DNA of 64,000 nt from Advenella sp. S44 (GTDB lineage: Bacteria > Pseudomonadota > Gammaproteobacteria > Burkholderiales > Burkholderiaceae_B), in assembly GCF_002810445.1 (NCBI RefSeq), contig NZ_NEXS01000011.1:62001-126000 (forward strand), in the 5' to 3' direction. The notes under the pieces were generated by a model. That model was not told the DNA's origin, searched no databases, and saw only the letters and a program-made list of their open reading frames with translations. Shown piece after piece: positions 4,078 through 64,000 of this stretch. Each line of letters begins with the position of its first letter. Within the stretch, counting starts at the first letter, position 1. Made by a program: the position numbers and the translations under genes.

Positions 4078-4095
4078 ACAGTTCTCCTGATCATT

Positions 4096-4923: not shown

Positions 4924-4960
4924 CGCTGCTCCTTTCATGCTTAGTGAACCGCTGTTGGGG

Positions 4961-13491: not shown

Positions 13492-13521
13492 TTATCAATT
13501 TGATGTTAATAAATTATCAAT
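13492..13521. promoter_or_regulatory. Two TTATCAAT direct repeats spaced 22 bp, probable LysR operator
   Basis: TTATCAAT occurs at 13492-13499 and 13514-13521, exactly 22 bases apart, that is two helical turns. The first copy is part of the inverted repeat ATCAA-T-TTGAT (13494-13504). The site lies 16-45 bases before the LysR ATG in the divergent gap with the Bug-AtuA operon, as expected for LysR autoregulation plus activation of the divergent operon. Confidence 0.4.
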
Positions 13522-13536
13522 AAGCCGGAGTACCCG

Positions 13537-14421: not shown

Positions 14422-14972
14422 AGGGGGCAGGTTCATGACCAGCGTCCGGCTATGCGACCCCGTCATGCGACAATGACAATTGAAACGACAAATAGGCCTC
14501 TGTCATATTTGCCCAATACAGAAGTAATCCGTGTCGAGTACTCGTCCGACTTACCGCTGGAGTCAATAATTGCTTTATAAACTGATTTTGTTCAGAAGCA
14601 TTCAGTTGATCAAACGTGCAATTGAATAAACTGCCTGCCTTGTAGGCTTTCATATAAGGCCATAATCGCCCAGCGGGTTTCAATGCCTTCACATACTTTT
14701 CGCGATGCGACTGCTGCCCCTTCGCGTCAATTCCAATATTTCATTTCTTAATTTGTTTGCCTCAACAACCCCCGCTCTGGGATCTATTTTCCAAGGTCAA
14801 CCAGCTCTCGATATTCAATAAGGCGGCGGCGCTTTGTATTCTCATATAAAAGCGAATATCCTCTTCCGAATATCCTAAAATCAGCCCTATTTGCCGTTCT
14901 GCCTCGTCTGAACATCCATCCAGGAATGCTCCAGCAGCACGGCGCCTTGTGCTGCTCATTTTGAGTGTGCGC
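14422..14972. other. 551-base gap without a convincing gene
   Basis: Two short leftward frames lie here: 14762-14959 (65 codons from an ATG giving MSSTRRRAAGAF, containing a somewhat protein-like GLILGYSEEDIRFYMR segment) and 14450-14692 (80 codons). Neither has a good ribosome-binding site or a family I recognise. They could be relics of a degraded gene 3' to the dehydrogenase. No clear terminator hairpin was found. Confidence 0.35.
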
Positions 14973-15914: not shown

Positions 15915-15921
15915 AGTAGGT

Positions 15922-38629: not shown

Positions 38630-38765
38630 TACCAGTACCCCGAACGTGGGAGAGTATATGTAGTTTACTTTAAATACACCTTAGTGCACAATAGTATACA
38701 GCTGGATCCTTGAGGTTTGATCACTCTACAAAAAATGACAAATGCAAACTATGCAATGGAGAGAC

Positions 38766-48213: not shown

Positions 48214-48280
48214 ACTTGATAATCTACAATCTTATATTCTTGCCGCGTCGGCAATGCGTATAGATTTGTAGGTGTCATTG

Positions 48281-50311
48281 ATGAGAAAAATCCGATCTTC
48301 CTATTGTGAAGCCGCCTGGCCGGCGTTAGCGATTTGCGCGGCTTGGACATTACCGGTGCCGGCGCTGGCGCAGAGTGTGCCACCCTCCCATCAGCAACAG
48401 ACCACGGAATTGGCCCCCATTACGGTAACGGCAGAAAAAACCAGCCGTCTGCTGGAACAGGTGCCCGCAAGTATTGCGGTCATCGACGGCCTGGACATCG
48501 AGCAGACAGGCATCCAGCGCATGGAGCAGCTAGAGGGCCGCATGCCCGGTCTTTCCTTTCAGCCCTTCGGTCAGTCGGGCCTGAACTCGCCGGTCATGCG
48601 CGGCGTAACCGCAAACTTTAATACTTCGTCTACGTCGGTATTGATGCTGGTCGATGGCGTGCCCACGTTGACGGCCCAGGGATTCGAAAACAGTTTTTTG
48701 GACCTGGATCGCATTGAGGTGCTGCGAGGCCCGCAATCGACCTTGTATGGACGCAATGCCGAGGCCGGTGTGGTATCCATTCACACCCAGCCCATGGACA
48801 ATACTCCAAGAGCTGCGATATCCGGTGAATTTGGAAGCCGCGCCAAGCGTGCGGGCAGTTTTTCGCTAAGCCAGCCGATTACACAAGATACCCTGTATGG
48901 TTCCATTTCCGGTAGCTGGTCCAGCCAGCACGGCTTTATTAATAATTCCCATACGGGAAAAAAAGACGACAGGCGCGAACGCGGCAACCTGAACATCGGC
49001 CTGCGCTGGACGCCGACACCGGCCACCGACGTGGTCTTGCGTTATGCCCGGCAAGAGTTTCATGATGGTTCGGCCCTATGGGGCAGCCCCAGCGCCGAAC
49101 GCAACGAAGTGGCATCTGGAACAGCGGGATGGAACAAATCTGTCGGCCAGACTTTCTCGCTGAGCGCCTCGCATCAATTTGCCTCTGGGCTTACGCTGCG
49201 CTCCATCACCGCCTATAACGACTATCGGGATCGCGTCCAGCAGGACACAGACTTCATGCCCATGGACGTTCTTCATGTTGGGCGTGATCATCACTTTCGC
49301 AATCTGTCGCAGGAACTGCGGATCGAAGGCAAGGCGGGCAAGGCAGACTGGCTGGTCGGCGTGTATGCGGACAAGCAGGACAATGACCTGGTCAATATTT
49401 CAAAAACGATGATGGGCAGCAGCCATCTGCAAGTCGGTCAAAAAGGCAGCTCGCTGGCCTTGTTTACGCATTGGAACGTCCCGCTTTCGGATGCGTGGAC
49501 CGTATCGCTGGGAGGGCGCATTGAGCGCAACAACGTTTCAATTGCCCCTGACGACAAGCAGAAAATGAGCGAGGGCTGGACACATTTCTCTCCCAAGCTG
49601 GCATTGCAGTATCAGATGACGCCAGACCACCAATGGTATATCAGCGTTGCCAAGGGGATACGTACCGGCGGCTTTAATGTGGTGTCTCCTGCGGCCAACT
49701 TTATGCCGTACAGTCCGGAGAAAACCCTCTCGTACGAGACCGGGCTCAAGGGTTCGTTCGATAACCGCCGCGGACGCTATTCAATCGCAGCCTATTACAT
49801 GACCGTGCGTGACATGCAGGTGATGCAAATGCCCACTGCCGGCATGATGTATATCACCAGCGCTGCCGCTGCAAACGCCAAAGGGATTGAGCTGGATTTT
49901 GACTACATGCTGGCACCGGGTTGGCGCGTCAATGCGGGCCTGGCCTGGAATCACACCCGCTTTGAACGCTTTCAGGATGGCATGGCCGATTATTCGGGCA
50001 AACGTAATCCCTTTGCACCTGACCTGAGCGGCCATGCCGGCGTACGCTATACCTCTTCAAAAGGCTGGTACGCGCAGGCGCAAGTTGTGGGCACCGGCAA
50101 AGTGTATTTGGATGCAGCCAATAAATACAAGCGCAATGGCTACGGACTGATCAATCTGACGGCCGGCTATGCCGGCAAGAATTGGGAAGTGGCAGCCTAC
50201 GTCAACAATGCCGCCAATAAAAAGTATGACGCCGTTGGTTATCAGAATGGCTTTGTGACCGTATACAGTCCGCCGCGCGAAGTGGGCATGCGCCTGACGT
50301 GGCGTCTTTAA
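48281..50311 (+). CDS. TonB-dependent outer-membrane receptor (siderophore type)
   Basis: A protein of about 676 residues with a Sec signal (MRKIRSSYCEAAWPALAICAAWTLPVPALAQ). The TonB box region is LAPITVTAEK; the plug domain runs to about residue 150 with VMRGV, VLMLVDGVP and IEVLRGPQSTLYGRNAEAGVV; a 22-strand barrel follows, ending in the aromatic-rich MRLTWRL with a terminal hydrophobic residue. Such receptors import ferric siderophores, other metal chelates or cobalamin. It starts a three-gene rightward operon with a methyltransferase and an RhtX-like permease and faces a thiocarboxylate biosynthesis set, so the ligand is probably the cluster's own metal complex. The pdt clusters have an equivalent receptor, PdtK. 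Confidence 0.88.
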   Translation: MRKIRSSYCEAAWPALAICAAWTLPVPALAQSVPPSHQQQTTELAPITVTAEKTSRLLEQVPASIAVIDGLDIEQTGIQRMEQLEGRMPGLSFQPFGQSGLNSPVMRGVTANFNTSSTSVLMLVDGVPTLTAQGFENSFLDLDRIEVLRGPQSTLYGRNAEAGVVSIHTQPMDNTPRAAISGEFGSRAKRAGSFSLSQPITQDTLYGSISGSWSSQHGFINNSHTGKKDDRRERGNLNIGLRWTPTPATDVVLRYARQEFHDGSALWGSPSAERNEVASGTAGWNKSVGQTFSLSASHQFASGLTLRSITAYNDYRDRVQQDTDFMPMDVLHVGRDHHFRNLSQELRIEGKAGKADWLVGVYADKQDNDLVNISKTMMGSSHLQVGQKGSSLALFTHWNVPLSDAWTVSLGGRIERNNVSIAPDDKQKMSEGWTHFSPKLALQYQMTPDHQWYISVAKGIRTGGFNVVSPAANFMPYSPEKTLSYETGLKGSFDNRRGRYSIAAYYMTVRDMQVMQMPTAGMMYITSAAAANAKGIELDFDYMLAPGWRVNAGLAWNHTRFERFQDGMADYSGKRNPFAPDLSGHAGVRYTSSKGWYAQAQVVGTGKVYLDAANKYKRNGYGLINLTAGYAGKNWEVAAYVNNAANKKYDAVGYQNGFVTVYSPPREVGMRLTWRL

Positions 50312-50317: not shown

Positions 50318-51370
50318 ATGATGGATTTGGTAAATACACACGCGCTCCAGCCTTTCTGGAGCATGGCCGCCGCACCCGTACAGGTTAGCGCGCTGGAACT
50401 GGCTTTGGACAACAAGCTGTTCGATTACCTTGTGCAGGACGCCACTGCAAAGCAGGTGGCCAGCAAACTGGCCATGCAGCCCGGCCCTGTTTCCGTCTGG
50501 CTTGACCTGCTATGGAGTATGGAACTACTGGCTCGCAACTTGCCCCCGGGCTCGCCAGGCGACTCAGGCGCGGCTACGCACTATCAATGCACCAGTCTGG
50601 CAAAGCGCTACCTGGTTTCGTCCTCGCCCGAGAACTGCGCTGCCGCCTTGAGTTATCGCCTACGCATCTTGCGCCACGCGGGTACGCAATTTGAGGACTT
50701 CGTTCGTTCGGGGCGCAGCGAACGTACCATACCGGGCGGCGAGGCAACTCACACCAACTGGGCAAAAGCGGCGGAACAACAAATCAGCCAGGAACAGCGG
50801 GCCGTCAGCGTGCCCTCGATTCTTGACCGTCTGCCACCGGCGTCTTCACTTGTCCAGCAGGGCAGGTTTCTGGACCTGGGCGGCGGCCCCGGCCATATTG
50901 CAATTGCGCTGGCCCACCACCTGCCACAATGGACGGGAACCGTCTGTGATCTGCCGGCCACGGCTACCGTCGCTCAGGGTTCGATTGACAACGCCGGCCT
51001 GGCCGACCGCATCAATGTGCGGTCAGCAGATCTGGAACATGACGACATCGGGACCGGCTACGATCTGATTTGGTGTTCCTGCGTCCTGCACTTTCTGCAG
51101 GACCCTAAGGCCGCGCTTAGCAAAATATGCCAGGGGCTGCGTCGCGGCGGCGTGCTCTACATTGCGCATGCCGAAGTGCCCTCGCAGGCGCGCGACGCAT
51201 CTCGAATACTGCCCTTTTATGCGTCAATGATGTTGCGCGGTCGCTTTGTTCCTGCCACCGGCCAGATGCACGACATGCTGGTCGCCACCGGCTTTTCACA
51301 GATCCGGTCACTCGGACCGATCGCGTTCCCCATGACGCCGGTCTGGCTTTACACAGGAATCAAACCATGA
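50318..51370 (+). CDS. SAM-dependent O-methyltransferase-type protein
   Basis: A 350-residue methyltransferase of the plant-COMT/hydroxyneurosporene type: an N-terminal dimerisation helix-turn-helix domain (about 15-110; ALELALDNKLFDYL) and a C-terminal Rossmann domain with the SAM motif FLDLGGGPGHIAIAL, CDLPAT and WCSCVLHFLQDP. It starts six bases after the receptor stop with AAGGAACA, and its stop overlaps the next ATG. Methylation of a thiol, thiocarboxylate or hydroxyl of the cluster product is plausible: it could tailor the metallophore or detoxify it inside the cell. Confidence 0.85.
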   Translation: MMDLVNTHALQPFWSMAAAPVQVSALELALDNKLFDYLVQDATAKQVASKLAMQPGPVSVWLDLLWSMELLARNLPPGSPGDSGAATHYQCTSLAKRYLVSSSPENCAAALSYRLRILRHAGTQFEDFVRSGRSERTIPGGEATHTNWAKAAEQQISQEQRAVSVPSILDRLPPASSLVQQGRFLDLGGGPGHIAIALAHHLPQWTGTVCDLPATATVAQGSIDNAGLADRINVRSADLEHDDIGTGYDLIWCSCVLHFLQDPKAALSKICQGLRRGGVLYIAHAEVPSQARDASRILPFYASMMLRGRFVPATGQMHDMLVATGFSQIRSLGPIAFPMTPVWLYTGIKP

Positions 51371-52659
51371 ATACCACGGCAAGCACGCCTAACCAGCATC
51401 AACCAAACGAACCGGCAGTGATCCGGGCCGAATCCGGATATTGGCCGCTTCAATTGTTGCTCGGCTGGATTAACCTGACCCTGACTGCACCGGTAGTCTA
51501 TCTGTATATCGGCCTTCCGTTGGTGCTACGCCAACATGGCTGGTCCGGAACAGACATCGGCCTATTGCAATTGGCCGGCCTGCCGGCGATTCTCAAGTTC
51601 CTTCTGGCCGCTCCCGTTGACCGCTACCCCCTGGGGCGCGCCGGTTACAGAAACTGGAGTATCGTGTTGTCAGTCGTTTACGCAGCATTGCTTCTGTTCT
51701 TTTCGCGCACCAGCCTGCAGGAGTCGCCCTGGTCTTTTCTCTTCACACTGGCGCTCAGCATTAATTTATTGGGAACCTGGACGGATGTCCCGATCAACGC
51801 CCTGGCGATTCGCTATTTGCCCGAATCGCAACGCATGCGGGCAGGCGCAATCCGGTCCGCAGCAACATCGCTGGGCGCTATTGTCGGCGGCGGATTAATG
51901 CTGCTGTTATACACCCGCTTTGGCTGGGCCGCACCGTTTCAGGTCATGGCCCTGGCCTTGCTATCGGGCTGCGTTCTGCTGGCGTTCATGCAGCGCAAGC
52001 CCTTGCCCGGCGTCTCCAGTGAGCCAGTGCAGACCGGCATCAACTGGCGTCTGTGGAAAGCGTACTTTACGATAGCCGGACACGGCAAATGGGCAATACT
52101 CATGCTGTTTTATTTTCCCTTTGTGGGCAGCGCCTGGGTCTATATGAAACCGCTACTGCTGGATAGCGGACTGTCCACCGAGAGGATTGCCATGATCGTT
52201 GGCATTCTGGGTGGCGTACTCGCGGCGCTGGCCAGCCTGGTGGTGGCGCGCATGACAAAGCACTACGGTATTGGCCAGATGTTATCCGGTGTTGCCTGGC
52301 TGAACGTGCTGGCCCTGGCCATGTTACTGATGTTTGTTCTGGCCGGGGCATCCGCTACCATACTGATTGCCATGGCGATCCTGCTTGCTATTGCCGTTGG
52401 AGCAGCATCGGGCCTGGTGTTTGGCGTCATGATGTATTTCGTTCGTCCAGCGCTGGTGGCGCTCGATTATGGAATACAGTCAAGCCTGTTTATCCTGACC
52501 CGCACGCTCATGCCTGCAGTAGCCGGCGTGCTGATGGATCGTACCGGTTATGCCGGCATGATGGGCTTTCTGGTTTCCGGCGCGCTGATCATCGCCTGGG
52601 CCACGACATCATGGCATCAATCGCTGACGGCCGCCATGACCGCTTCAAGCAGGAAATAA
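51367..52659 (+). CDS. MFS permease, RhtX/FptX/AmpG-like siderophore importer
   Basis: A 430-residue 12-helix transporter. The N-terminal region YLYIGLPLVLRQHGWSGTDIGLLQLAGLPAILKFLLAAPVDRY is the pattern of the AmpG/RhtX group, in which RhtX and FptX alone move rhizobactin and pyochelin across the inner membrane. Its ATG overlaps the methyltransferase stop (ATGA). With the upstream TonB receptor it would make a complete one-protein-per-membrane import route. The 3' end overlaps the convergent GH88-like gene by 43 bases. Confidence 0.83.
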   Translation: MNTTASTPNQHQPNEPAVIRAESGYWPLQLLLGWINLTLTAPVVYLYIGLPLVLRQHGWSGTDIGLLQLAGLPAILKFLLAAPVDRYPLGRAGYRNWSIVLSVVYAALLLFFSRTSLQESPWSFLFTLALSINLLGTWTDVPINALAIRYLPESQRMRAGAIRSAATSLGAIVGGGLMLLLYTRFGWAAPFQVMALALLSGCVLLAFMQRKPLPGVSSEPVQTGINWRLWKAYFTIAGHGKWAILMLFYFPFVGSAWVYMKPLLLDSGLSTERIAMIVGILGGVLAALASLVVARMTKHYGIGQMLSGVAWLNVLALAMLLMFVLAGASATILIAMAILLAIAVGAASGLVFGVMMYFVRPALVALDYGIQSSLFILTRTLMPAVAGVLMDRTGYAGMMGFLVSGALIIAWATTSWHQSLTAAMTASSRK

Positions 52660-53717
52660 AGGGCGCAAGGCGTCTCTACGATTGAGGCTGCTTGCGCATC
52701 GACTTTATACAGGTGACCGGCAAAAATGCCATTTTCTCCAACCATGCAGCTCACCAGGTTGGCCCGTTCTTGCTGCGCCGCTTCGCGCAGCCACGGCTGC
52801 CCGGACATCTGCCGGGACATCTGTTCCAGCGCAACGCAGGCAATCGCCGATGCGCAAGGATCAAACTCGCTGGCGCCGGCCGCGGCCGACGGCAAAGGCC
52901 AAGGCCGGCTACTCTCTGCCGGCTGATTCTGCTGGCTGCGGACCTGCCTCCACCACTGGCAGGCAAGCAGGGCCGCAGCCTGATAATCGTCTCCATAGCA
53001 CCTGACGGCTTGCGCCAAGCCAAGCATGGCCCACGCCTGTCCGCGGGCTGACCATATCAATGATGCATGACGATTCTCGTGCGCAACACCGGGCATCACT
53101 TGAGTGGCCCATCGGCCATCGGCGTCAGCCAATTGTGCCACACACGTATCCAAGTGCTGTCTGCCCAGGGTCATGTCTAGCGGATCTCCGTGAAGATGGG
53201 TCAGCAACAGCAAGGAGGCGAGCGAATCGACATTCAAAATACGATCGCCTTCAGGGCCACCTCCCATGTCTTGTCCGAGCGGATACATTTTCTGCTGATG
53301 ATCATAACTATTACGCAATCGCGCGCATGCCGCACTGGACAGCGCGTGCCACGCCGAATCGCTATCATACTGATTGGCCACGCCCGCCCCATACCAAAAG
53401 ACAAAGCTTCTATTTATGCTGGCTTGCGGCAGAACCGGTTCAAGCCGGCGGCTCCATTGGCGGGCCGTATCAATGGACGTTGCCGTTCTCTCAACGGCCG
53501 CCCGTTTCCACCAGAGCGCCGCCCAGAATCCGCCCAGCCAGGACCCTCGTCTAGATAACTTCCAAGGCTGGTCACGTGCCTTGCGGTATAGCGGAAACTG
53601 CGAATCACACGCCTGGGCAATACGGTCCATATGCCGGAAAATATCATGCACTAACGGGTTTTGCGGCGCCTCGCCGACCCGCGCGTCATGTGCATCATGT
53701 ACGTCATGTGCTGCCAT
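52617..53717 (-). CDS. GH88-like (unsaturated glucuronyl hydrolase fold) protein
   Basis: A 366-residue protein with an (alpha/alpha)6-barrel pattern of glycoside hydrolase family 88. Matches seen by eye are GSWLGGFWAALWW (family W-x-x-G-F-x-x-G-x-L-W), an Asp in NQYDSDSAW, ILNVDSLASLLLL with the second Asp, SARGQAWAMLGLAQA and DPCASAIACVALEQM. Family enzymes hydrate unsaturated uronides. In a metallophore cluster this is unexpected: it may act on the product or have a non-glycosidase role. No signal peptide is present; the His/Asp-rich N-terminus (HDVHDAHDA) is odd. It is the last gene of the leftward operon and overlaps the MFS gene by 14 bases. Confidence 0.7.
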   Translation of the reverse strand: MAAHDVHDAHDARVGEAPQNPLVHDIFRHMDRIAQACDSQFPLYRKARDQPWKLSRRGSWLGGFWAALWWKRAAVERTATSIDTARQWSRRLEPVLPQASINRSFVFWYGAGVANQYDSDSAWHALSSAACARLRNSYDHQQKMYPLGQDMGGGPEGDRILNVDSLASLLLLTHLHGDPLDMTLGRQHLDTCVAQLADADGRWATQVMPGVAHENRHASLIWSARGQAWAMLGLAQAVRCYGDDYQAAALLACQWWRQVRSQQNQPAESSRPWPLPSAAAGASEFDPCASAIACVALEQMSRQMSGQPWLREAAQQERANLVSCMVGENGIFAGHLYKVDAQAASIVETPCALYFLLEAVMAAVSD

Positions 53718-54900
53718 GGGATCGGATCCGGTAAAGCATCAAGGAAAAGGCGGCGCCAGCCAGGGTCGTGCCTATCAGTAAGAACCAGGCGATTCCAAAC
53801 CCCTGGGGCTGGGATAATAAAACGCCAAATAATAGAGGTCCCACCGCAAACCCGCCGAAAAATCCCACAGACAACATACCGGCAGCGGTAGCCGTCTTGC
53901 CGAACCGCTCGTCGCGCAACAGCATGCTCATGGCAATCGCATTGGTGGCCGCCACTGTCAACCCCATGCCGGTTATGCCGATCCATAAAGGAAAGTGTCG
54001 GGTTGGGGTAGCTAGTGTCGTGACATAGACGGCCAAGCAGGCAAGAATAAAAAGCATGACCATCAACTGCGTCTCGTCGCGCAGTCGGCTGCCCAGGGGA
54101 GTTAGCGCGATCCGCGACACGATGCCCATAACGCCGAAGACGCTGATCATAGCACCTGTCATTTGGGCCGACATACCCAGCTGTGATGCATAGACGCCAA
54201 AAAAAGTGATGAAGGACGATAACGTCAGGCCGGCGCATAACTGCACGAGCATCAGCAATCCCAGCAACACATTGGGACGCGGCAGCGCAAGGGCCCGGCC
54301 GCCGGCAAGCGGTTGAGCGCTGGCCATTCCCGCTGGCAACCGTCGACTTACCAGGAAAAACATGACCAGCGCCAGTGGGACCCATAACGCCAGCGCCCCT
54401 CGCCAGCCTAACCATTGCGCGAAAAACGGCAGCAAGATACCGGCCACAAGCGCAGAAATTTGCACGCCCGACTGTTTGATTCCAACCATGGCTGGCTTTT
54501 TCGGGGCAGGCACCAGTTTTGCGATCGCCATATTGGTTGCCGGATTCGCCAGAGATTGCGCGGCGCCACACAGCAACATGGCCAGGATCAATCCGACGAA
54601 TCCAGGCAACACAGCCATGAGAAAAAAAGACAGCGCGACCAGCCCGAACAACCCCATCAGTCCCGATCTCATGCCAAGTCGCTGTACTGCCTGGCCTGAC
54701 CACGGAGAAACAACGGCCGCCACACCGAAGGAAGCGGTGGTCAGCCAGGCAAGCTGTCCGCGCGATATGCCCAGTTCCTGGATCAATTGCGGGCCGAGCA
54801 CACCGATACCGTAAAATATCATCATCGGCATCCCCATTGCCAGGGTCAGCAGGCTGCCGACCGCCAGCGCAGACTGAACGGGATATCGGGCTTCATCCAT
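53704..54900 (-). CDS. MFS transporter, probable product exporter
   Basis: A 398-residue, 12-helix major facilitator unlike the importer on the opposite strand. Helix 1-2 reads GMPMMIFYGIGVLGPQLIQELGISRGQLAW, and PWSGQAVQRLGMRSG provides the conserved loop 2-3. The gene overlaps the acyl-CoA-dehydrogenase-like gene by eight bases and thus belongs to the biosynthetic operon. Export of the finished thiocarboxylate or related metallophore is the simplest role. A 350-codon open frame in another phase over the same bases is a shadow. Confidence 0.84.
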   Translation of the reverse strand: MDEARYPVQSALAVGSLLTLAMGMPMMIFYGIGVLGPQLIQELGISRGQLAWLTTASFGVAAVVSPWSGQAVQRLGMRSGLMGLFGLVALSFFLMAVLPGFVGLILAMLLCGAAQSLANPATNMAIAKLVPAPKKPAMVGIKQSGVQISALVAGILLPFFAQWLGWRGALALWVPLALVMFFLVSRRLPAGMASAQPLAGGRALALPRPNVLLGLLMLVQLCAGLTLSSFITFFGVYASQLGMSAQMTGAMISVFGVMGIVSRIALTPLGSRLRDETQLMVMLFILACLAVYVTTLATPTRHFPLWIGITGMGLTVAATNAIAMSMLLRDERFGKTATAAGMLSVGFFGGFAVGPLLFGVLLSQPQGFGIAWFLLIGTTLAGAAFSLMLYRIRSHGST

Positions 54901-56119
54901 GATTGCTTGCTCTGTTTACGACTGAGGGATAATCACTGTCAAATAGCTCAGGGTTGCGACTGTTGGCAAGAAGCGCGCGCCCCACGGAGCTGACCAGCGC
55001 ATCGTCTGTTCCGTCTAGAATGTGGGTCGTCCTGGCATTGCGATACAGGCTGGACAAGGGTGTCCCGTCGCTCAATCCCTCTGCCCCCATGATCTGGATG
55101 GCATTATCGGTCGCCACGCTCAAGGCATCGGAAGCGGCCAGTTTGGCAATATTGACTTCTATGGAATTGGCCTGCCGGTCATCGAATTTGCGGGCTGCGT
55201 CTCGCAGTAACGCACGGGCCGTGGCAATATGCCGATACACATTGCATACTCGGGCCCGAACCAGTTGTTTTTCCACTAATCGGGCCTGAACGCCCCGTTC
55301 CGAATGGATACGTTCGCACATCAGCTCAAAACTGCGCTGCGCCATACCCAGCCACTGACTGGCTCGCAGTATCCTGCCCAGTCCGAGCCTTTGCTGCATC
55401 AGCTTGATGCCTTGCCCGGGCACGCCCAGCACATGATCCGACGGGACAACAACATTGGTAAAGGACAACTCGCCCTGCCCCTGCATGCGTCCCAGCACAG
55501 GAAGTTCGCGCAGCACCTCGAAACCGGGTGCGTCGGCAGGCACAATCAGCATCGAGAGCCCCTGTTCCACCGGTTTGTCTGACGTACGCGCCACTACGGT
55601 AATGAAATCGGCGTGCAGGGAGCGGCACACAAACCATTTTTTGCCAGTCAACACCCAGTGGCTATCCTGCCACCTTGCACGCGTCTGCATAGTATCGGGT
55701 ATTGAGCCGATACTGTCCGGCTCGCTCATGGCGTAACTGCAGACGGCACGCCCCTTTACCAACGGATCAAAGTAGCGCGCGCGTACGACCGGGCTGCCAT
55801 GCCAGAACAGCATGTGAGCATCAAGCGTGGCATCCGCGCCCATAATGGCCGGCCCGAATTCGGAGCGGCCCTCCTGCTCGGCGATAGGCAGATAATCGCT
55901 CAATCGGTTGACAATACCGCCATGTCCCTTCGGATAAAAACTGCCAAACAGCCCTGCCTGGCGTGCCTGTGCAGACAACGCGGCAGCGATTTGCCTGGCA
56001 TTGTCGTCGCCGGCAAGCAAGGCGGTTTCTTTGGGAATGATTTGCGTATCAACAAATTGCTTTACACGCTGACAAAGGTAAGTCACCGGATTATCCAGGG
56101 GTTCGGTAACGGCATTCAT
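54893..56119 (-). CDS. Acyl-CoA dehydrogenase family protein with Asp at the catalytic Glu position
   Basis: A 408-residue flavoprotein with the acyl-CoA dehydrogenase fold: N-terminal helices, a middle beta domain (SYAMSEPDSIGSIPDTMQTRA, WVLTGKKWFVCRSLHADF) and C-terminal helices (GRILRASQWLGMAQRSFELM). The motif that usually reads Y-E-G-T is HILDGTDD here, so the catalytic base would be Asp. It should oxidise an acyl thioester, or, as in related natural-product enzymes, act on an aminoacyl or aryl intermediate. Its ATG overlaps the ligase stop by one base (TAATG). Confidence 0.83.
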   Translation of the reverse strand: MNAVTEPLDNPVTYLCQRVKQFVDTQIIPKETALLAGDDNARQIAAALSAQARQAGLFGSFYPKGHGGIVNRLSDYLPIAEQEGRSEFGPAIMGADATLDAHMLFWHGSPVVRARYFDPLVKGRAVCSYAMSEPDSIGSIPDTMQTRARWQDSHWVLTGKKWFVCRSLHADFITVVARTSDKPVEQGLSMLIVPADAPGFEVLRELPVLGRMQGQGELSFTNVVVPSDHVLGVPGQGIKLMQQRLGLGRILRASQWLGMAQRSFELMCERIHSERGVQARLVEKQLVRARVCNVYRHIATARALLRDAARKFDDRQANSIEVNIAKLAASDALSVATDNAIQIMGAEGLSDGTPLSSLYRNARTTHILDGTDDALVSSVGRALLANSRNPELFDSDYPSVVNRASNHG

Positions 56120-57768
56120 TATGCAGACAGCCTTTGAGGATTGACCATGGCCGCAGCATCCTCGGCCAAGGCACGCTTATCGATTTTTCCGGCAGGCGTC
56201 AGCGGCAGGCTTCGATAGAACCTGAGATATTCGGGTAGTTTATTGATTTCCAGGCCCTGTTCGCGCAAGTAATTGGTGATCTCGGTAAGCGAGAAACGAT
56301 CAGCCTGGGGCCGCAGCGTCACGCATAGACATACCCGCTGGCCCAAATCGAAATCGGGAACCGGCACGCAAGCGACCGTTACGACATCCGGATGGCGAGT
56401 CACCAGCCCCTCTATCTGGACCGGACTGATATTGGCGCCGCCACGGATAATGATGTCCTTCTTGCGGCCGGCCAGCACCAGATGCCCCTGCGGGTTGATA
56501 TAGCCCAGGTCACCTGTTTTGACCCAACCTTCCTGGTCGCGATATGTCTGATCCAGCTCTGGTGCATTGACATATTGCATGGGGCTGACGGGCCCCCGGG
56601 CGTAAATTTCACCAATCTGGCCGCGGGCAAGTTCGACACCGTTATCATCAACGATCCGTATTTCGCAAACGGAAGGGTTGGGGGTTCCAACACTATTGAA
56701 CGCCACTTCTATCGAATCGCTCAGCGTATTATGGCAATTGACGCCATCGGCCGATCCGTAGAGACTGATAAAACCGCAGTCAAAGGCTTTGCTGCAACGT
56801 CTGACGGTCGTCTCGTCAATCACGGAGCCGCCCACGATCAGCCCCTTGAGGCTGCTTTTGTCCACTGCTGCAAGCGCCGGCTCCGCTGCAATACGCTGCA
56901 GCATGGTAGGAACACCAAGAATGAAAGTCGGTTTAAATTTTCGAATGGCATCAATGGCGCTATGCACATCGAAGCGAGGCAATACAACAAGAGAACCGCC
57001 AAGGCAGCACAACACCCCGAAGGTCGCCGTCGAGCCAAACGAGGAGCCCAGCGGAACCAGATACAAGCCTCGGAACTCACTGTTCTTCGGGTTGATTCGC
57101 TCAAGAAAACGGCCACGCCCGCCCACCAGCGCGTTATGCGAATAGGCGACCAGCTTGGGTTCGGATTCCGTACCGGAAGACACCAGCAATCGCACCGGAG
57201 AGTCGGGATCAACCTGGGGCAACTGCGCAGGATCCGCCGGAGCACTGGCCAGTAATGAATCGAGCGTGACCCAGCCATCGCGGGCATTGCCCTGCACCAC
57301 TAACGCCCGCAACGACAATAGCGTTGGTCGCAGCGACTCGATGATTTCGCACAGCGCCGTGTCGGCAAAAACTTCCGGCACAATGACCACACGGGCATCG
57401 CAGCGACGCAGCAAAGACTGGATATCCAGCTTCCCGCGCCCTGGCGGAAACGGTGCGACAATGGCTCCCAGCGCGGCAGCCGCCAGATCAATGGCGCAAC
57501 ACACCCAATGATTGCTCAGTTGATAGGCCACAACGTCGCCAGGCATGACGCCGGCGCCGCGCAACCCTGTAGCCAGGCGCAATGCATGCTCGTACAACTG
57601 ACCATAACTGACGGTGCTCTCCTCGGACAAGACGGCCGGCTTATCGGGGGCGTTCTGTGCTTTTTCCCGAAACAGCTCAAATACCGGTTTGTCCGGATAA
57701 AGGGACTCTTGCGCCCAGCGCCGACGCAGTGAATGGGGAACAAGATCGATGATACCGGCTGAATTCAT
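56119..57768 (-). CDS. Acyl-adenylating ligase (ANL superfamily)
   Basis: A 549-residue adenylating enzyme. Core motifs are LLVSSGTESEPKLVAYSH in the phosphate-loop position (the usual TSGTTGxPK is altered), YGSADG, WVKTGDLGYINPQGHLVLAGRKKDIIIRGGANISPVQIE and the C-terminal lysine in PAGKIDKRAL. I use ATG 57768, which overlaps the CaiB-like stop as ATGA and has GGAG upstream. In pdt and qbs clusters an equivalent ligase (PdtJ, part of QbsL) activates the carboxylate that becomes a thiocarboxylate; the same role is likely here. Confidence 0.85.
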   Translation of the reverse strand: MNSAGIIDLVPHSLRRRWAQESLYPDKPVFELFREKAQNAPDKPAVLSEESTVSYGQLYEHALRLATGLRGAGVMPGDVVAYQLSNHWVCCAIDLAAAALGAIVAPFPPGRGKLDIQSLLRRCDARVVIVPEVFADTALCEIIESLRPTLLSLRALVVQGNARDGWVTLDSLLASAPADPAQLPQVDPDSPVRLLVSSGTESEPKLVAYSHNALVGGRGRFLERINPKNSEFRGLYLVPLGSSFGSTATFGVLCCLGGSLVVLPRFDVHSAIDAIRKFKPTFILGVPTMLQRIAAEPALAAVDKSSLKGLIVGGSVIDETTVRRCSKAFDCGFISLYGSADGVNCHNTLSDSIEVAFNSVGTPNPSVCEIRIVDDNGVELARGQIGEIYARGPVSPMQYVNAPELDQTYRDQEGWVKTGDLGYINPQGHLVLAGRKKDIIIRGGANISPVQIEGLVTRHPDVVTVACVPVPDFDLGQRVCLCVTLRPQADRFSLTEITNYLREQGLEINKLPEYLRFYRSLPLTPAGKIDKRALAEDAAAMVNPQRLSA

Positions 57769-59588
57769 GAAAAGCTCCAAGGACAATTTACGGAAGAATA
57801 GGACTTATGGTTAAGATGTCTGGCCAGTTGACCATGGGTAGCCATATCGGCCAGATTGCTCACAACGGGGCTGCATGGGATACCCTCAAGCCGCAGCCGC
57901 GAGACCCAGATATCACTGAGATCGCTGGCCAGACTGATTTGCTGCGCCTGAGTGGCCTGCCCTGAACACGTCATGCCAAGAATCCTGTCCAGCGCCTGTC
58001 TATGCCCCTCGGTTGTGCATTCAATCGCCAGCATGCCGTCCCGCGTTGGCAACACTTTGGAAAACCCGCCCTTTGCCTGACTCAGCGATGCCGATTGCAT
58101 CAGCAAGTCTGCCGCGCCCAGCAAGGAACTTTCCACGCTGCAGCCCAGGCCCGTACTGGCGCGTCTCAGTAATGCGGCTGTCGTGCCCAGAGAGGCGACT
58201 ACCCCGCCCAGCACGTCGAGCACGGTAAAGAGCGATCCGCCCCGAATACCATTGCTTGCAGCAATTGCCGAAGCCACCCCCGACCATGCCTGGACCGTGA
58301 AATCAGTGCCCGGCGCTGCGATATTGGCATCGCCCCAGCCACCCGCATAGGAGTAAACCAAATCAGGTCTGATCGCATGCATATTTTGGGCATCCAGTCG
58401 CAACTGGGCCGCTTTGCCGGGCGCCCAGTTGTGCAGAAACACGTCCGACTCACGGACATATTCATAAACTTGCCGGCGGCCGGCTTCGCTTTTGATATCC
58501 ACTTGCCGCACCTGTTTCAAATGGTTCAGGGCGTCGAACCGGACCGAGCAGCCATTGGCTACCGGCGGCATCGCCCGCAAGGGATCCCCGCCTGGCGGTT
58601 CCAGACGAATCACTTCGGCGCCAAGCATGGCCAGCATATGCCCAGCCAGAGGCCCCTGGATACGTCGGCACGATTCGATCACCCGAATTCCCTGCAAGGG
58701 CAACTCATTGGGCCGCACCCCATGCCGCAGATATGGCAAACCACTATCGCACGATATTTTCCAGGGCGATACCGCATCACGCGCGTAGTCGGGGTCTTTG
58801 CGTCTTTGGTCAAGTGTGCGAACCGGAACCAGGGCAAGCCCCGCCTTGCCGGCAGCCTCGCTGATACGGCTATAAGGCACTTCGGACAACAGTTGCAGGC
58901 ACACGCCAGGAATGGGGGCAATCGCCTTGGCATAGCGCAGCAAAAATGCGGTCCAGGCGCGCCCTGCCGTTTCGGGATCCAGTCCCAGTATTTCCCAGAA
59001 GCGTCGCCACGGCGCACTGTCCAATGTCTCGATTTCAAAGACAACGCCATCGGCAGACGTAAAAGGTGGACGCAATACCGGGTCGGTGCTGCCCGGCGCA
59101 ATCTGTTCCGGATCTTCCTGGGCGCTAGCACCGGCCAGGTACTGGCTGACACTGAGCAGGCCGCAAGCGAGCGCAGAGACCTCGACTTTTTCGAATGCAC
59201 CTCCATTCATTTGCCCGAGCAAACCTGCCAGACCGCTTTGCAGGGTCACGGCGCCCGTCAGCACAGACAGATAAGGCAAGCCCAGCGGCTGCGGGCCTCC
59301 GCTTGCCCTGCCATGGACAGACATGAGACCACAAACTGCCTGCAGGGTAGATTCGGTGATATGTGGGCTGCCCGAGCCAATATCGTCTCCCAGGCCGACA
59401 TGTACCGCACCTGCCTTGGGATGGTGCAGACTACACAACGCATCTGCCGGATTATCGACGAGGTTGGCCTCTTGCATGCCAAGCAATGCCGCTTGCCGGG
59501 ACACGCTGGCCCCCAGTTCCGTCCAATCCTGCGGGACCGTCCCCGGCCGCCAGTTGACGCCCAGGTTTTCTAAAATTGTTTCTGCCAT
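57765..59588 (-). CDS. CaiB/BaiF-family (CoA-transferase III) protein, long two-part form
   Basis: A 607-residue protein. The C-terminal part (from about residue 300) is a family III CoA transferase: LQGIRVIESCRRIQGPLAGHMLAMLGAEVIRLEPPGGDPLR, FLHNWAPGKAAQLRL and PGTDFTVQAWSG with an aspartate in the catalytic region. The N-terminal 290 residues look like a second, degenerate copy (VGLGDD, LPYLSVLTGAVTLQSGLAGLLG). A protein of this kind (PdtI/QbsK, as I recall) accompanies the sulfur-transfer genes in pdt and qbs clusters and may pass sulfur or an acyl group between the carrier and the activated acid. The gene lies between the sulfur carrier and ligase genes. Confidence 0.8.
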   Translation of the reverse strand: MAETILENLGVNWRPGTVPQDWTELGASVSRQAALLGMQEANLVDNPADALCSLHHPKAGAVHVGLGDDIGSGSPHITESTLQAVCGLMSVHGRASGGPQPLGLPYLSVLTGAVTLQSGLAGLLGQMNGGAFEKVEVSALACGLLSVSQYLAGASAQEDPEQIAPGSTDPVLRPPFTSADGVVFEIETLDSAPWRRFWEILGLDPETAGRAWTAFLLRYAKAIAPIPGVCLQLLSEVPYSRISEAAGKAGLALVPVRTLDQRRKDPDYARDAVSPWKISCDSGLPYLRHGVRPNELPLQGIRVIESCRRIQGPLAGHMLAMLGAEVIRLEPPGGDPLRAMPPVANGCSVRFDALNHLKQVRQVDIKSEAGRRQVYEYVRESDVFLHNWAPGKAAQLRLDAQNMHAIRPDLVYSYAGGWGDANIAAPGTDFTVQAWSGVASAIAASNGIRGGSLFTVLDVLGGVVASLGTTAALLRRASTGLGCSVESSLLGAADLLMQSASLSQAKGGFSKVLPTRDGMLAIECTTEGHRQALDRILGMTCSGQATQAQQISLASDLSDIWVSRLRLEGIPCSPVVSNLADMATHGQLARHLNHKSYSSVNCPWSFS

Positions 59589-59655: not shown

Positions 59656-59928
59656 TCAGCCACCGGCCACGGCGGGCAATACGGTCAGGCTGTCGCCCGG
59701 CTTTGTCTTCGTGTCCAGCCCCTCGCAAAAACGGATGTCATTGTCATTCACATAAATATTCACGAAGCGATGAACCTGACCATCCTTGACCAGCCGCTCG
59801 CCAACACCTGGAAATTGCGTATCCAGGTGCTTGATGATGTCCGCGACCGTCTCGCCCTGAGCCTGGACTTTTTTCTCTCCGTTGGTCAATGGGCGCAAAA
59901 TGGTGGGAACGGCAATAGATATCGACAT
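59656..59928 (-). CDS. ThiS/MoaD-family sulfur carrier protein ending in Gly-Gly
   Basis: A 90-residue beta-grasp protein. It starts ISIAVPTILRPLTNGEKKV and ends GDSLTVLPAVAGG, with the bare di-glycine at the very C-terminus that is adenylated and converted to a thiocarboxylate. The sequence is CysO-like (LRPLTNGEKKVQAQGETVADIIKHLD). Thioquinolobactin's QbsE is reported to carry extra residues after Gly-Gly that a JAMM protein removes; none are present here. AAGGAATCACT precedes the ATG. Partners are the MoeZ-like enzyme and JAMM hydrolase just upstream in the operon. Confidence 0.9.
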   Translation of the reverse strand: MSISIAVPTILRPLTNGEKKVQAQGETVADIIKHLDTQFPGVGERLVKDGQVHRFVNIYVNDNDIRFCEGLDTKTKPGDSLTVLPAVAGG

Positions 59929-60006: not shown

Positions 60007-60441
60007 TCATGCCACGGCCTGTGCCTGTGTCGCGGCAACAAGGTGGATCGATTCTTCAAATACGCTGCCGGCGATGATGCGGAAACTTCGAAACGGCACC
60101 GTGCTTGCGTGCCAGGTCGAAACGATCAGATAATGCATATCGGGGTCGTTGGCAAATTCGATATCTTCACGACTGGGCGTGGCGTGGGTTGCCGTATGAG
60201 AATGATAGATACCGATACATTGTTCGCCACGCTCGTCAAGATCGCGCAGAACCCGCAGCTGCTCCGTCGAATCGAAGGAAAAGTACACTTCCGATGCCGC
60301 CACATTGCGCATCGGAATGCACCTGGCAACGTGGCTGCGGCCAGCCGGCGCCACCAGCATGCCGCAACATTCGACAGGATGCGCCTGCTGCGCCTGCTTC
60401 ATGATTTGGGCGTAAACCGCCTTGTTCATAATAAGGGCCAT
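60007..60441 (-). CDS. JAMM/MPN+ metallohydrolase (Mec/QbsC-like)
   Basis: A 144-residue zinc hydrolase. The complete JAMM motif is visible: E24 in HPVECCGMLV and H80-S-H82 followed seven residues later by S90-x-x-D93 (GIYHSHTATHATPSREDI). Relatives are Mycobacterium Mec+, which releases cysteine from the CysO-cysteine adduct, and QbsC/PdtG in thiocarboxylate siderophore clusters. Since the carrier already ends in Gly-Gly, hydrolysis of a carrier-linked product fits better than C-terminal trimming. The start at 60441 is chosen over the in-frame ATG at 60537, which lies inside the MoeZ gene. Confidence 0.86.
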   Translation of the reverse strand: MALIMNKAVYAQIMKQAQQAHPVECCGMLVAPAGRSHVARCIPMRNVAASEVYFSFDSTEQLRVLRDLDERGEQCIGIYHSHTATHATPSREDIEFANDPDMHYLIVSTWHASTVPFRSFRIIAGSVFEESIHLVAATQAQAVA

Positions 60442-60466
60442 GGTGTTTTCAATACCTGTCTTCGAT

Positions 60467-61636
60467 TCAATACGTTGGCAGCGATGGGTCAATATCCCGC
60501 ACCCATGCCAGTACGCCGCCTTCCAGATTCCGGACATTGCGGCGATCGATCTTCAACAGCTCTTCCAGCACCGCCTGGGAACGGGCGCCCGAGCGGCAGG
60601 AAATGACCAGCGGCTGCTCTTGCCCGTAGCGCTCGACAATTTCCTGCGCCACGGTCGGCGACTTGCTCAGCGGCACAGCATCGGGAATACTGACAATATC
60701 CCGTTCATGCGGTTCGCGCACGTCAATCAGAATTGGCGCCTTGCCCGCATCGCGCAGTGCCTTCAATTCCTTGACCGTCATCTGGTCAGTGGTTCGGTCG
60801 GGTGTCGCGGTTTGGGTCAGGCCGCAAAAAAATTCATAATCGGCCAGCTCAGTAATGGGCTTGCGCTCGGGCAGGCGTCGGATCGGCAGTTCACGGTAAG
60901 TCATTGCAAGTGCATCGTAGGCCAGCAAACGCCCCAGCAGCGGATCGCCGATGCCCGTAATTAGTTTTACGGCTTCAGTGCTCATAATGGAAGCAATGGC
61001 GGCGCACAAAATCCCCAGCACACCGCCCTCTGCGCATGATGGGGCCAGCTCGGGCGGCGGTGGCTCGGGGTACAAATCGCGATAGTTCAGGCCCGCATCG
61101 CCTGGCGCGTTCTCCCAGAAAACCGAAGCCTGTCCTTCAAAGCGGAAAATGGACCCCCAAACATAAGGCCGGTCGGCCAGAATGCATGCATCATTGACCA
61201 GGTAGCGTGTGGCAAAATTATCGGTGCCATCGAGAATCAGGTCGTACCTGGAAAAAAGGGCTACGGCCATGTCGGGCTCCAGCCTATCGGTATAGGTTTC
61301 CACATGCACCAGGGGATTTAGCCGGGCAATGGCCTGTCGCGCGCTCTCTACCTTGAGCTCTCCCACCGTGTCGACAGAATGAATCACCTGGCGCTGCAGG
61401 TTGGACACATCAACTCGGTCAAAATCAATAATACCGATAGTGCCTACACCGGCGGCGGCAAGATACAGTAGCGTGGGCGCGCCCAATCCTCCAGCGCCAA
61501 TCACCAGCACCCGGGCGTTTTTCAGCCGGCGCTGACCCGTCATGCCCACATCCGGAATCAGAAGATGACGACTATAGCGACCGATTTCCTCTCGACTCAA
61601 CGGCTCGCCGGGCTCAACAATGGCCGGTATGTTCAT
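60467..61636 (-). CDS. MoeZ/MoeB-type activating enzyme with C-terminal rhodanese domain
   Basis: A 389-residue E1-like enzyme. The ThiF/MoeB domain has the nucleotide motif GAGGLG (47-52), the conserved R/D residues in DFDRVDVSNLQRQ, and C201 in PSCAEGG. The rhodanese domain starts near 285 and has the catalytic loop CRSGARS with C347. The zinc-binding CxxC pairs of MoeB are not evident, as in MoeZ. It adenylates the Gly-Gly end of the sulfur carrier and transfers sulfur to it. AAAAGGAACGCGAT precedes the ATG. A Fur-box-like site lies just upstream. Confidence 0.9.
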   Translation of the reverse strand: MNIPAIVEPGEPLSREEIGRYSRHLLIPDVGMTGQRRLKNARVLVIGAGGLGAPTLLYLAAAGVGTIGIIDFDRVDVSNLQRQVIHSVDTVGELKVESARQAIARLNPLVHVETYTDRLEPDMAVALFSRYDLILDGTDNFATRYLVNDACILADRPYVWGSIFRFEGQASVFWENAPGDAGLNYRDLYPEPPPPELAPSCAEGGVLGILCAAIASIMSTEAVKLITGIGDPLLGRLLAYDALAMTYRELPIRRLPERKPITELADYEFFCGLTQTATPDRTTDQMTVKELKALRDAGKAPILIDVREPHERDIVSIPDAVPLSKSPTVAQEIVERYGQEQPLVISCRSGARSQAVLEELLKIDRRNVRNLEGGVLAWVRDIDPSLPTY

Positions 61637-61764: not shown

Positions 61765-64000
61765 TCAATGTTGAACTGTGGACATATCCGCACACACCGC
61801 AGCAAACGCGCAAACAAAGCGATCTGCTTCCTCCATGGTCAATATCAGCGGAGGCTGTATGCGCATGACCCTATTATTATTTGCCGTCACGAAGGTGAGC
61901 ACACCGTGCTCTTGCGACAGGCGTGTCATGAAACGCAAGACAAACAGATCTTCCATACTGCCTTCCAGCTCTTTCATTGCCTGGCTCAGATGCATGTGCA
62001 GGCTATCGGACATCATCCGATACGTCATGAATGCCTGTGCCGGGATCCGGGCAGCCATCTCCCGCAGCAAGGCGCGAGCGCCACCAGTCATGTCATAAGA
62101 GAACTCAATGGCAATCATCATGCCCCGGCCGCGAACCTGTCGGATGAACCCGTATTGATCGGCGATATCCTGCAATTGTTGTTGCAGATAAGGACCAACG
62201 TGAGCAGCGTTCTGTGTCAGCTGTTCCTGTTCCAGCACATCCAGTGCCGCCATCGCACTGGCAGCGGCAAAATTGCCGCCCCCGAAAGTAGAGGTATGCA
62301 AGGCAAACGTATCCATCGTGCCATAGGCCTTGCGCCAGACATCGCCTGTGGCCAGCGTCGCCCCTATCGGTACGGCGCCCCCCGAAAGCGATTTGGATAA
62401 CGCCATGATGTCCGGCGCCACCCCTTCCCAATCGCAGGCGAACAACTTGCCGGTACGGCCCAGACCGGTCTGTATTTCGTCCAGCACCCAGAGGCAATCG
62501 TATTGGTCGCAAGCGGCCCTGACCTGCGCAAGATAGCCGTCCGGCGGAATAATGACGCCGCCCTCGCCCTGTATCGGCTCCATGACAAAAGCGGCAACAT
62601 CGCCTTGCGCCAGCCTGGCGCGCAGCGCCTGGGCATCACCGAAAGGCAGTTGCTCGCAATGGGTCAGTAGCGGTTCAAACGGCTTACGATGTTTGCTTCG
62701 CCCGGTAATCGATAGTGCGCCCAGGGTCTTGCCGTGGTAGCCATTGCCGCAATAAAGAATCACCTTGCGATCGCTGGCGGCCAGTGCCATTTTCATTGCC
62801 GCTTCCACGGCTTCGGTCCCGGAATTGCTGAAAAAAACATGCTGCATCTTGCCGGGCGCCATTTGTGTCAGGCGCCGGGCCAACTGGCTGGTGTGCAGGG
62901 GCGCGGACACATACTGAACAAACGTCGGATACTGCTGTTGCAGGTATTCGGTCAGAGCCGCACTCACTTTGGGATGATTGTGCCCGGTATTGAGGCAACC
63001 GTAGCCGGCCACAAAATCCAGATAGCGACGACCGTCCAGGTCTGTCAGCCAGCACCCCTCTCCCTTAACGAAAACGCGCTCCACATGATTGAATTGGTAA
63101 AACTCGCGCAGCACCGGATTGATGTGTTTGCCGAAATCGTCCAATACCTGTTGGCGCAGAGCATGCGCTGGCAAAGGGTGATCAGGCTGGCCGATTTCGG
63201 GATTGTGATGATATTGGCGCAAACCGTCAAAGCGCGCACCGGCCACCGGTTCCGAATCGCTTGCCATGGGGTTGGGAACAAAACCGTGTCGCTTTGCCAC
63301 CTCGCCAATTTCTAGCACCCGCTCAACGGGCAATTCCCGTCCGATGGAAAATGGCTGCGCCCTGCCCTCCAGGGCCAGAATGATGGTTTCTGCCATGCAG
63401 CCGTTTAAATTTCGCATGGGGTCCAGGCCCAGCGCCATGGCTCCGAAACTGACGTCGGAGGTGGCCGAAACCAGGCCGCCATCAATGACCAGAATATCGT
63501 CCCGCTGCCCAGCCCCGGGCAAGACATCCTTGGGCAGGGCGGTATCCACGACCACTGACCCCGGCTGCAATCGGGCCGGATCAATAACCCCGCCACTTGA
63601 TGTGGCGGTCACGAAAAATCGGGCAATGCCGTAGCATACGTCCATCCGGGAATGGTACTGGACCTGATCCGGACTCTGCAGCGGCAGGTCGCTGGGCAGG
63701 TTCGACGTTGGACCGCGATGCACCAGGTGTAATCGACACCCATGGGCCAGCAATAAGCGCGCCACCGCCTGGGCAATCGATCCCGGATAGCCGGCCACGA
63801 CCACTTGTGCACTTTCTGCAGATACGCCCAGCCGCTCCATACAATCAACAACATTGCGGTACGCGGCAAAGGCGGTCAAGGAATTTCCGGTAGTCACCGG
63901 TACAAGCGCGCGCTCGAGCGTCTGTAGACCACGGTTGCCGACAATGGCCGTGAACCCGCCCAGGCCGACCAGTTCAGCGCCACCGTGGTGCAAGGCATTG
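61765..64000 (-). CDS. Fusion of acyl-ACP-reductase-like domain and class III aminotransferase (5' end beyond window)
   Basis: At least 743 residues, open to the right edge, so the true start lies outside. The first ~240 visible residues resemble aldehyde-forming acyl-ACP reductase: ELVGLGGFTAIV, VTTGNSLT, a cofactor loop VVAGYPGSIAQAVA, and C199 (counting from 63993) in NLNGCMAETIILALEG at the position of the acyl-enzyme cysteine, followed by IGRELPVERVLEIGEVAKRHGF. From about 290 onward is a class III aminotransferase (GVxxxYLDFVAGYGCLNTGHNHP; SNSGTEAVEAAMK; DEIQTGLGRTGK; PLP lysine in ALSKSLSGG). One chain could reduce a carrier- or CoA-bound acid to an aldehyde and aminate it. Confidence 0.82.
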   Translation of the reverse strand, partial: NALHHGGAELVGLGGFTAIVGNRGLQTLERALVPVTTGNSLTAFAAYRNVVDCMERLGVSAESAQVVVAGYPGSIAQAVARLLLAHGCRLHLVHRGPTSNLPSDLPLQSPDQVQYHSRMDVCYGIARFFVTATSSGGVIDPARLQPGSVVVDTALPKDVLPGAGQRDDILVIDGGLVSATSDVSFGAMALGLDPMRNLNGCMAETIILALEGRAQPFSIGRELPVERVLEIGEVAKRHGFVPNPMASDSEPVAGARFDGLRQYHHNPEIGQPDHPLPAHALRQQVLDDFGKHINPVLREFYQFNHVERVFVKGEGCWLTDLDGRRYLDFVAGYGCLNTGHNHPKVSAALTEYLQQQYPTFVQYVSAPLHTSQLARRLTQMAPGKMQHVFFSNSGTEAVEAAMKMALAASDRKVILYCGNGYHGKTLGALSITGRSKHRKPFEPLLTHCEQLPFGDAQALRARLAQGDVAAFVMEPIQGEGGVIIPPDGYLAQVRAACDQYDCLWVLDEIQTGLGRTGKLFACDWEGVAPDIMALSKSLSGGAVPIGATLATGDVWRKAYGTMDTFALHTSTFGGGNFAAASAMAALDVLEQEQLTQNAAHVGPYLQQQLQDIADQYGFIRQVRGRGMMIAIEFSYDMTGGARALLREMAARIPAQAFMTYRMMSDSLHMHLSQAMKELEGSMEDLFVLRFMTRLSQEHGVLTFVTANNNRVMRIQPPLILTMEEADRFVCAFAAVCADMSTVQH

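Follow-up and report, generated by a model that had tools for sequence, protein, structure and literature searches.

In a stretch of 64,000 nucleotides from Advenella sp. S44 (the window; G000:C6:62001-126000 within the 4.3 Mb genome), the minus strand carries a gene for a single-chain thioester reductase-aminotransferase of the PigE family. The gene follows directly after a PigD-like gene and lies in a cluster resembling the pdt cluster for the Pseudomonas siderophore pyridine-2,6-dithiocarboxylic acid (PDTC). We consider it likely that this enzyme (PdtM by position), together with its PigD-like partner (PdtL), makes a 5-methyl-4-alkyl-3,4-dihydro-2H-pyrrole beside a thiocarboxylate metallophore. 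A little less firmly, but still with fair confidence, we propose that the pdtL/pdtM pair is the origin of the long-chain (+)-3,4-dihydro-5-methyl-4-alkyl/alkenyl-2H-pyrroles of 1986, and that pdt clusters are two-product clusters yielding a thiocarboxylate metallophore and C14-C18-derived lipophilic cyclic imines. The two genes are as follows.

61765..64000, on to 64278, minus strand: PigE-type fusion, PdtM by position, thioester reductase (Cys294) plus class III aminotransferase (Lys629); Pfam, PDB, NCBIfam, alignment.
64269-66818 in window numbering, beyond the window, directly upstream of the fusion: PigD-like thiamine diphosphate (ThDP) enzyme, PdtL by position, 849 amino acids; NCBIfam.

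Inside the window, the minus-strand frame of the fusion is uninterrupted between 63999 and 61765 (744 codons), with its 5' end open. The adjoining sequence supplies a further 278 bases, to 64278, and completes an open reading frame (ORF) of 837 amino acids with no internal stop (L002:2766-5279:-), so that we regard the fusion as one gene and not as two joined. Met3 aligns with the annotated start methionine in three plasmid homologues, and may for this reason be the true start. The protein is 100% identical to its counterpart in Advenella FME57, and the same reductase-aminotransferase fusion was found at eight further loci (833-848 amino acids). Since the architecture recurs at these eight loci, and Cys294 and Lys629 are invariant in all nine aligned PigE-type rows, the Advenella row included, an artefact of assembly or of the reading frame can be dismissed. 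In the alignment the two Advenella genomes were merged as one row, and three of the six plasmid PigE records (H2, H5, H6) were omitted, as their genera were already represented. A join of two genes was ruled out by the single open gene and by the presence of the same fusion in other genera.

An earlier reading of the window made from the sequence alone (the sequence-only reading), which named no strand, had described at this place an acyl-(acyl carrier protein) (acyl-ACP) reductase-like domain with a cysteine in the motif GCMAE, fused in frame to a class III pyridoxal 5'-phosphate (PLP) aminotransferase with its lysine in SKSLSGG. Both observations were borne out. Pfam Aminotran_3 covers residues 400-826 (E 7.1e-102) including Lys629 of SKSLSGG. 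The N-terminal part gave no match in Pfam, but a sequence search with the first 367 amino acids found PigE (371 bits) and the cyanobacterial acyl-ACP reductase 6jzq (E 1.1e-25), and Cys294 of GCMAE is aligned on the reductase cysteine of 6jzq as well as on the cysteine of 4ppm. A nucleotide-binding motif, GYPGSI or GFPGSI (G-Y/F-P-G-S-I), is present in all nine rows. Origin of the N-terminal domain from another dehydrogenase family was ruled out by the match to acyl-ACP reductase. Thus, the three findings named by the sequence-only reading as speaking against it, namely another dehydrogenase family, the lack of an acyl-accepting cysteine and a sequencing join, were all looked for and none was found. 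The structure prediction of the fusion, based on an alignment of two rows, had a mean predicted local distance difference test score (pLDDT) of 31.8, which is too low to judge a channel between the two sites.

Over its whole length (residues 3-834) the fusion matches Serratia PigE, PDB 4ppm, with 894 bits; the PDB entry name is 'Aminotransferase' and its identity as PigE is given in the available part of PMC9594044. The NCBIfam PigE equivalog cut-off of 850 bits was passed with 1335.6 bits. The sequence-only reading knew of no characterised enzyme with such an architecture. However, PigE (PMC8341465) and, in reversed domain order, TamH (PMC9594044, as far as the accessible text goes) were already known. 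Architecture and general reaction had been published by 2021, and the Advenella enzyme is ordinary in kind, a member of the PigE family. For PigE a thioester intermediate was proposed, and a synthetic thioester restores prodigiosin formation in a pigD mutant; Cys296 of PigE, whose counterpart in acyl-ACP reductase is Cys294, sits in the acyl-ACP-reductase-like domain, and a PigE-containing lysate turns the thioester into 5-methyl-4-pentyl-3,4-dihydro-2H-pyrrole (H2MAP), with ornithine or arginine as likely amino donors (PMC8341465). The suggested conversion of an acyl thioester via an aldehyde into an amine on one chain is therefore the same as that reported for PigE, and is supported for the Advenella protein at the level of its sequence.

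Alternatively, the enzyme might only transaminate an aldehyde made elsewhere, its reductase domain being a structural remnant. Purified PigE formed pyridoxamine 5'-phosphate with amino donors and showed no thioester reduction in vitro (PMC8341465), as this alternative would predict. Against it stand the conservation of Cys294 and of the nucleotide-binding motif in nine of nine rows, the alignment of this cysteine with that of acyl-ACP reductase, the conversion of the thioester by PigE lysate (PMC8341465) and the TamH reductase domain, which the excerpt of PMC9594044 describes as active in a cascade. We consider a mere transaminase quite improbable.

The PigD-like gene lies mostly outside the window and was thus hidden from the sequence-only reading, which also left the neighbouring pdt/thiocarboxylate genes unconnected. 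It overlaps the fusion gene by 10 nt, and a PigD-type gene adjoins the PigE-type gene at all nine loci compared. Because of this adjacent gene, the amine formed by the fusion likely cyclises to a dihydropyrrole. A GDG...N motif of the ThDP type was found by pattern in eight of the nine PigD rows; it is present in all six of the pdt-type and G846 rows and absent in the Thioclava row. The pattern CNEH or NNEH occurs in five of the nine.

Membership in the PigE family, as expressed by the equivalog cut-off, could indicate that the pair makes the short-chain pyrrole precursor 2-methyl-3-n-amylpyrrole (MAP) for a prodiginine-like pigment. However, no full-length PigB or PigC match was found in the genome of the window, and with it no prodigiosin pathway. 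PigC gave three partial stretches in the whole genome (best 36% over 286 of 899 residues, in a 788-amino-acid frame). PigB matched only stretches of 36-63 residues in four of six genomes, that in Advenella being a single one of 36. Of 13 queries from the Thioclava prodigiosin cluster, PigD and PigE matched in the window and its continuation, PigI and PigA did so at 24-26%, falling on AMP ligases and an acyl-CoA dehydrogenase (CoA, coenzyme A), and nine had no match. In one cluster of the genus g204 (see below) PigF matches a methyltransferase with 30% over 163 residues. Furthermore, the PigD and PigE rows lie across a branch with 100/100 support from the prodigiosin rows. A role in pigment synthesis is, accordingly, the least probable of the explanations considered, and a very remote one. 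The prodigiosin pathway was rejected for lack of a full-length PigB or PigC match, and the expected set of PigB, PigC and MBC-branch genes was not found. The family model itself (NCBIfam NF053554) gives 1335.6 bits for Advenella, 1385.6 for Thauera and 1369-1400 for three prodigiosin proteins. Since clusters that lack prodigiosin genes also yield proteins above the PigE cut-off, automatic annotation may wrongly label such proteins as prodigiosin enzymes.

Instead of pigment genes, a thiocarboxylate cassette accompanies the pair. The cluster consists of 14 genes, comprising the pair, the cassette and further genes including an AraC regulator. Beside the pair, the following members lie in the window.

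60467..61636, minus strand: MoeZ-like E1 adenylyltransferase plus rhodanese domain (PdtF type); Pfam ThiF and Rhodanese, NCBIfam, matches in Thauera and three g204 genomes.
60007..60537, minus strand: JAMM/JAB peptidase (PdtG type); Pfam Prok-JAB.
59656..59928, minus strand: ThiS/MoaD-like sulphur carrier with GG C-terminus (PdtH type); Pfam ThiS, sequence.
57765..59588, minus strand: two-domain type III CoA-transferase of the thioacid cassette (PdtI type); Pfam CoA_transf_3 in two stretches.
56119..57786, minus strand: AMP-forming acyl ligase (PdtJ type); Pfam AMP-binding.
54893..56119, minus strand: acyl-CoA-dehydrogenase family protein (PdtO by position); Pfam.
53704..54900, minus strand: major facilitator superfamily (MFS) transporter (PdtN by position); Pfam MFS_1.
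52617..53717, minus strand: conserved cluster protein of 366 amino acids, the 14th gene; homologues in three g204 clusters.
51127..52659, plus strand: MFS permease (PdtE by position); Pfam MFS_1.
50318..51370, plus strand: S-adenosylmethionine-dependent methyltransferase, O-methyltransferase-like (PdtP by position); Pfam.
48272..50311, plus strand: TonB-dependent outer-membrane receptor (PdtK by position); Pfam, matches in two of three g204 clusters.

The true start of the MFS permease probably lies downstream, because the listed ATG overlaps the preceding gene by 244 bases. The 366-amino-acid protein had no significant match in Pfam, NCBIfam or PDB; its homologues in the three g204 clusters show 33-41% identity and share the stretch W--RGQAWA-LGL, which may resemble GH88 hydrolases. 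Its structure model (pLDDT 39.9) was too poor for use.

MoeZ-rhodanese, JAMM, ThiS, CoA-transferase III and AMP ligase stand in the same order as the PdtF-G-H-I-J core. This set is that of the PDTC and quinolobactin class, according to the available part of PMC1779556. In Pseudomonas F113 the PDTC cluster reads pdtCKPELMFGHIJON (PSF113_2605-2618, fourteen loci), as given in excerpts of PMC3570484 and PMC7415375, and the Advenella cluster matches this string in content and core order. The most complete counterparts come from three genomes of the genus g204. By tblastn of the 14 cluster proteins against the loci of the relatives, all 14 genes were found in G662 and G1284, and 13 in G1259 (TonB receptor not found). 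The g204 order is AraC, (TonB), methyltransferase, MFS, PigD-like, PigE-like, MoeZ, JAMM, ThiS, CoA-transferase, AMP ligase, acyl-CoA dehydrogenase, MFS, unknown, and laid beside the F113 string it agrees, which is why we infer that PdtL is the PigD-like and PdtM the PigE-like protein. The presumed roles of PdtC, PdtE and PdtK served as a cross-check on this naming. OrfL and OrfM of P. stutzeri KC may carry other annotations, one of them perhaps that of a methyltransferase.

The g204 PigE-type proteins show 64-67% identity to the Advenella fusion. Nine of the 14 genes were detected within 22.5 kb of Thauera sp. Sel9 (PigE 70%, PigD-like 57%; the final gene is truncated where this stretch ends). 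The Thauera pair (L013:7515-12508) is divergent from the thiocarboxylate cassette (298-7020). Within these 22.5 kb no match was obtained for AraC, TonB, methyltransferase, the second MFS or the unknown protein. After the pair comes a different large ORF (12879-16127) that by eye resembles a TonB receptor. The Advenella cluster is 99.85% identical to that of Advenella FME57 (G095) across 36,470 bases including the flanks. A recent transfer of the cluster between species as a special event is not supported, given that this identity includes the flanks.

PigE matches above the cut-off are rare. They were found in two of 151 genomes of the family, both of one genus, in one of 399 of the order and one of 369 of the class (each time that of the window itself), in three of 398 of the phylum (own, G662, G846) and in three of 59 of the genus g204. 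The last three are exactly the g204 genomes with a near full-length CoA-transferase match (E < 1e-100), 23 more having weak, partial ones; the chance of hitting the same three is 3e-5 if the genomes were independent, which they are not. At E 1e-40, the CoA-transferase was found among the 369 class genomes in that of the window only.

This linkage, together with the position of the pair beside the cassette in Advenella, Thauera and the three g204 species, would also fit a role of the pair in building the thiocarboxylate metallophore itself, i.e. in supplying a ring or a side chain for PDTC or a similar compound, with no separate product. Several observations argue against this. G846 carries the PigD-like/PigE-like pair (53% and 67%; G846:C17:21730-24255), with neither a thiocarboxylate cassette nor further prodigiosin-cluster matches within 40 kb around it. 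The CoA-transferase query, which gave full-length matches in three other genomes, had no match in the whole G846 genome. In trees of nine rows each for PigD and PigE, which split five pdt-type from three prodigiosin rows with 100/100 support, G846 falls among the pdt-type rows. Since G846 has the pair without a CoA-transferase match, the pair appears separable from thiocarboxylate synthesis. Conversely, thiocarboxylate clusters without the pair seem to exist. For ptm/ptn, the available part of PMC6006322 names only an acyl-CoA synthetase and a CoA-transferase as shared with the qbs, pdt and ytk clusters, and the two plasmid records in which a PdtI-like gene was found (35% and 39%) do not belong to the six where PigE matches at E 1e-100. 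Finally, the PDTC ring derives from dihydrodipicolinate and is not known to need such a pair. All in all, a contribution to the metallophore alone is unlikely, though the least so of the alternatives. The surroundings of the pair in G846 comprise a LysR gene, two MFS genes and a DUF1963 protein.

A separate dihydropyrrole product, the reading we prefer, would be formed as follows. PdtL and PdtM would start from C14-C18 enoyl thioesters. The N-terminal domain of PdtM would take the acyl group onto Cys294 and reduce it with NAD(P)H to a 3-acetyl aldehyde, which the C-terminal domain would transaminate via PLP on Lys629. The resulting 1,4-amino ketone would close spontaneously to a 5-methyl-4-alkyl-3,4-dihydro-2H-pyrrole. 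Because no full-length match to PigB, the oxidase that would aromatise the ring, was found, the dihydropyrrole would remain the end product, in agreement with the dihydropyrrole ring of the F113 compounds described below.

Chain length and product identity we infer from known compounds. H2MAP, the product of PigE, accumulates in a delta-pigB strain, as reported in the accessible part of PMC7065143. According to the excerpt of PMC7415375, F113 alone of four strains makes 3,4-dihydro-5-methyl-4-alkyl(C11:0)/alkenyl(C13:1, C15:1)-2H-pyrroles, which have the ring of H2MAP, and it is the one of the four shown with pdt (Table 1 row). Their first isolation, from P. putida DSM 3601, is credited by the same source to Hildebrand and Budzikiewicz (1986). 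The calculated [M+H]+ values of the three F113 compounds are 238.2529, 264.2686 and 292.2999. Related compounds, one of them with m/z 280, and PDTC derivatives were both raised by wheat root extracts, as described in the available text of PMC7911646; m/z 280 fits an acetyl C11:0 compound (calculated 280.2635). The side chain corresponds to the acyl chain minus three carbons, so that pentyl in H2MAP goes back to C8, and C11:0, C13:1 and C15:1 would go back to C14, C16 and C18. These are ordinary fatty acyl lengths. In the open-licence literature we found neither a gene assignment for the dihydropyrroles nor a link of PigD/PigE chemistry to pdt.

Some points weigh against the proposed function. 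The PigD-like partner reached 595.7 bits in NCBIfam PigD, its sole NCBIfam match, and did not pass the cut-off of 950, which separates the four PigD-type proteins tested (Thauera partner 611.2, two prodigiosin PigD proteins 1355.0 and 1379.8). By its sequence it is PigD-like and distant from PigD, not filed as PigD, and its donor or acceptor may for this reason differ from those of PigD. The lack of reductase activity in purified PigE, the lysate alone being active (PMC8341465), counts here, too. The names PdtL and PdtM are positional, taken from gene order, and the PigB search in Thauera covered 22.5 kb only. As for the compounds, three of eight lipophilic nitrogen compounds (25, 26, 29) occurred in all four strains, as stated in the excerpt of PMC7415375, so part of the group does not follow pdt. 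The tie between compounds and cluster comes from two strains, F113 and DSM 3601, the latter a presumed producer of PDTC. PDTC is listed for P. putida in the available part of PMC10393863, with the strain unspecified.

Our results suggest a second use of PigD/PigE chemistry, unrelated to pigment, inside a metallophore cluster. If our assignment holds, it would provide the genes for a Pseudomonas metabolite family known since 1986 and seen again in 2020-2021, when its levels rose strongly in biofilms and with wheat root extracts. Furthermore, two genes of the well-known pdt cluster would gain a function, and two enzymes would suffice to convert fatty thioesters into lipophilic cyclic imines.

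Elsewhere in the window, an ORF on the minus strand (39862-40812) resembles by eye, from its translation, a serine beta-lactamase or a transpeptidase-like hydrolase and lies beside a dipeptide-type ATP-binding cassette transporter. Several TctC-type periplasmic binding proteins within one stretch were recognised by eye from their translations (31237-32229, 38742-39746, L002:12375-13352), which looks like a common expansion in Burkholderiales.

Compared with known systems, the Advenella cluster shares the PdtF-G-H-I-J core and the gene content with the pdt cluster of Pseudomonas. In contrast to F113, to which it was likened by published gene order, receptor, methyltransferase and permease lie at the far end of the cluster and are encoded on the other strand. 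Serratia PigE (4ppm) has the same domains, domain order, cysteine and lysine along its whole length, and is encoded directly after a PigD-type gene, too. However, the three PigE rows from prodigiosin clusters are 49-51% identical to the Advenella fusion and have other genes around them; in Advenella PigB and PigC were not found, and a long-chain substrate is predicted. TamH of the tambjamine pathway in Pseudoalteromonas, as far as described in the accessible text of PMC9594044, likewise joins a class III transaminase and an acyl-ACP-reductase-type domain in one chain and converts an acyl thioester into an amine, its reductase domain working with a carrier-protein partner. But there the transaminase comes first, the partner is TamA (an ACP-ligase fusion) and the amine is linear, whereas the Advenella fusion has the reductase first. 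The cyanobacterial acyl-ACP reductase (6jzq) belongs by sequence to the same family as the N-terminal domain of the Advenella protein, with the catalytic cysteine aligned, but it is a stand-alone enzyme and passes its aldehyde to a deformylating oxygenase instead of a transaminase.

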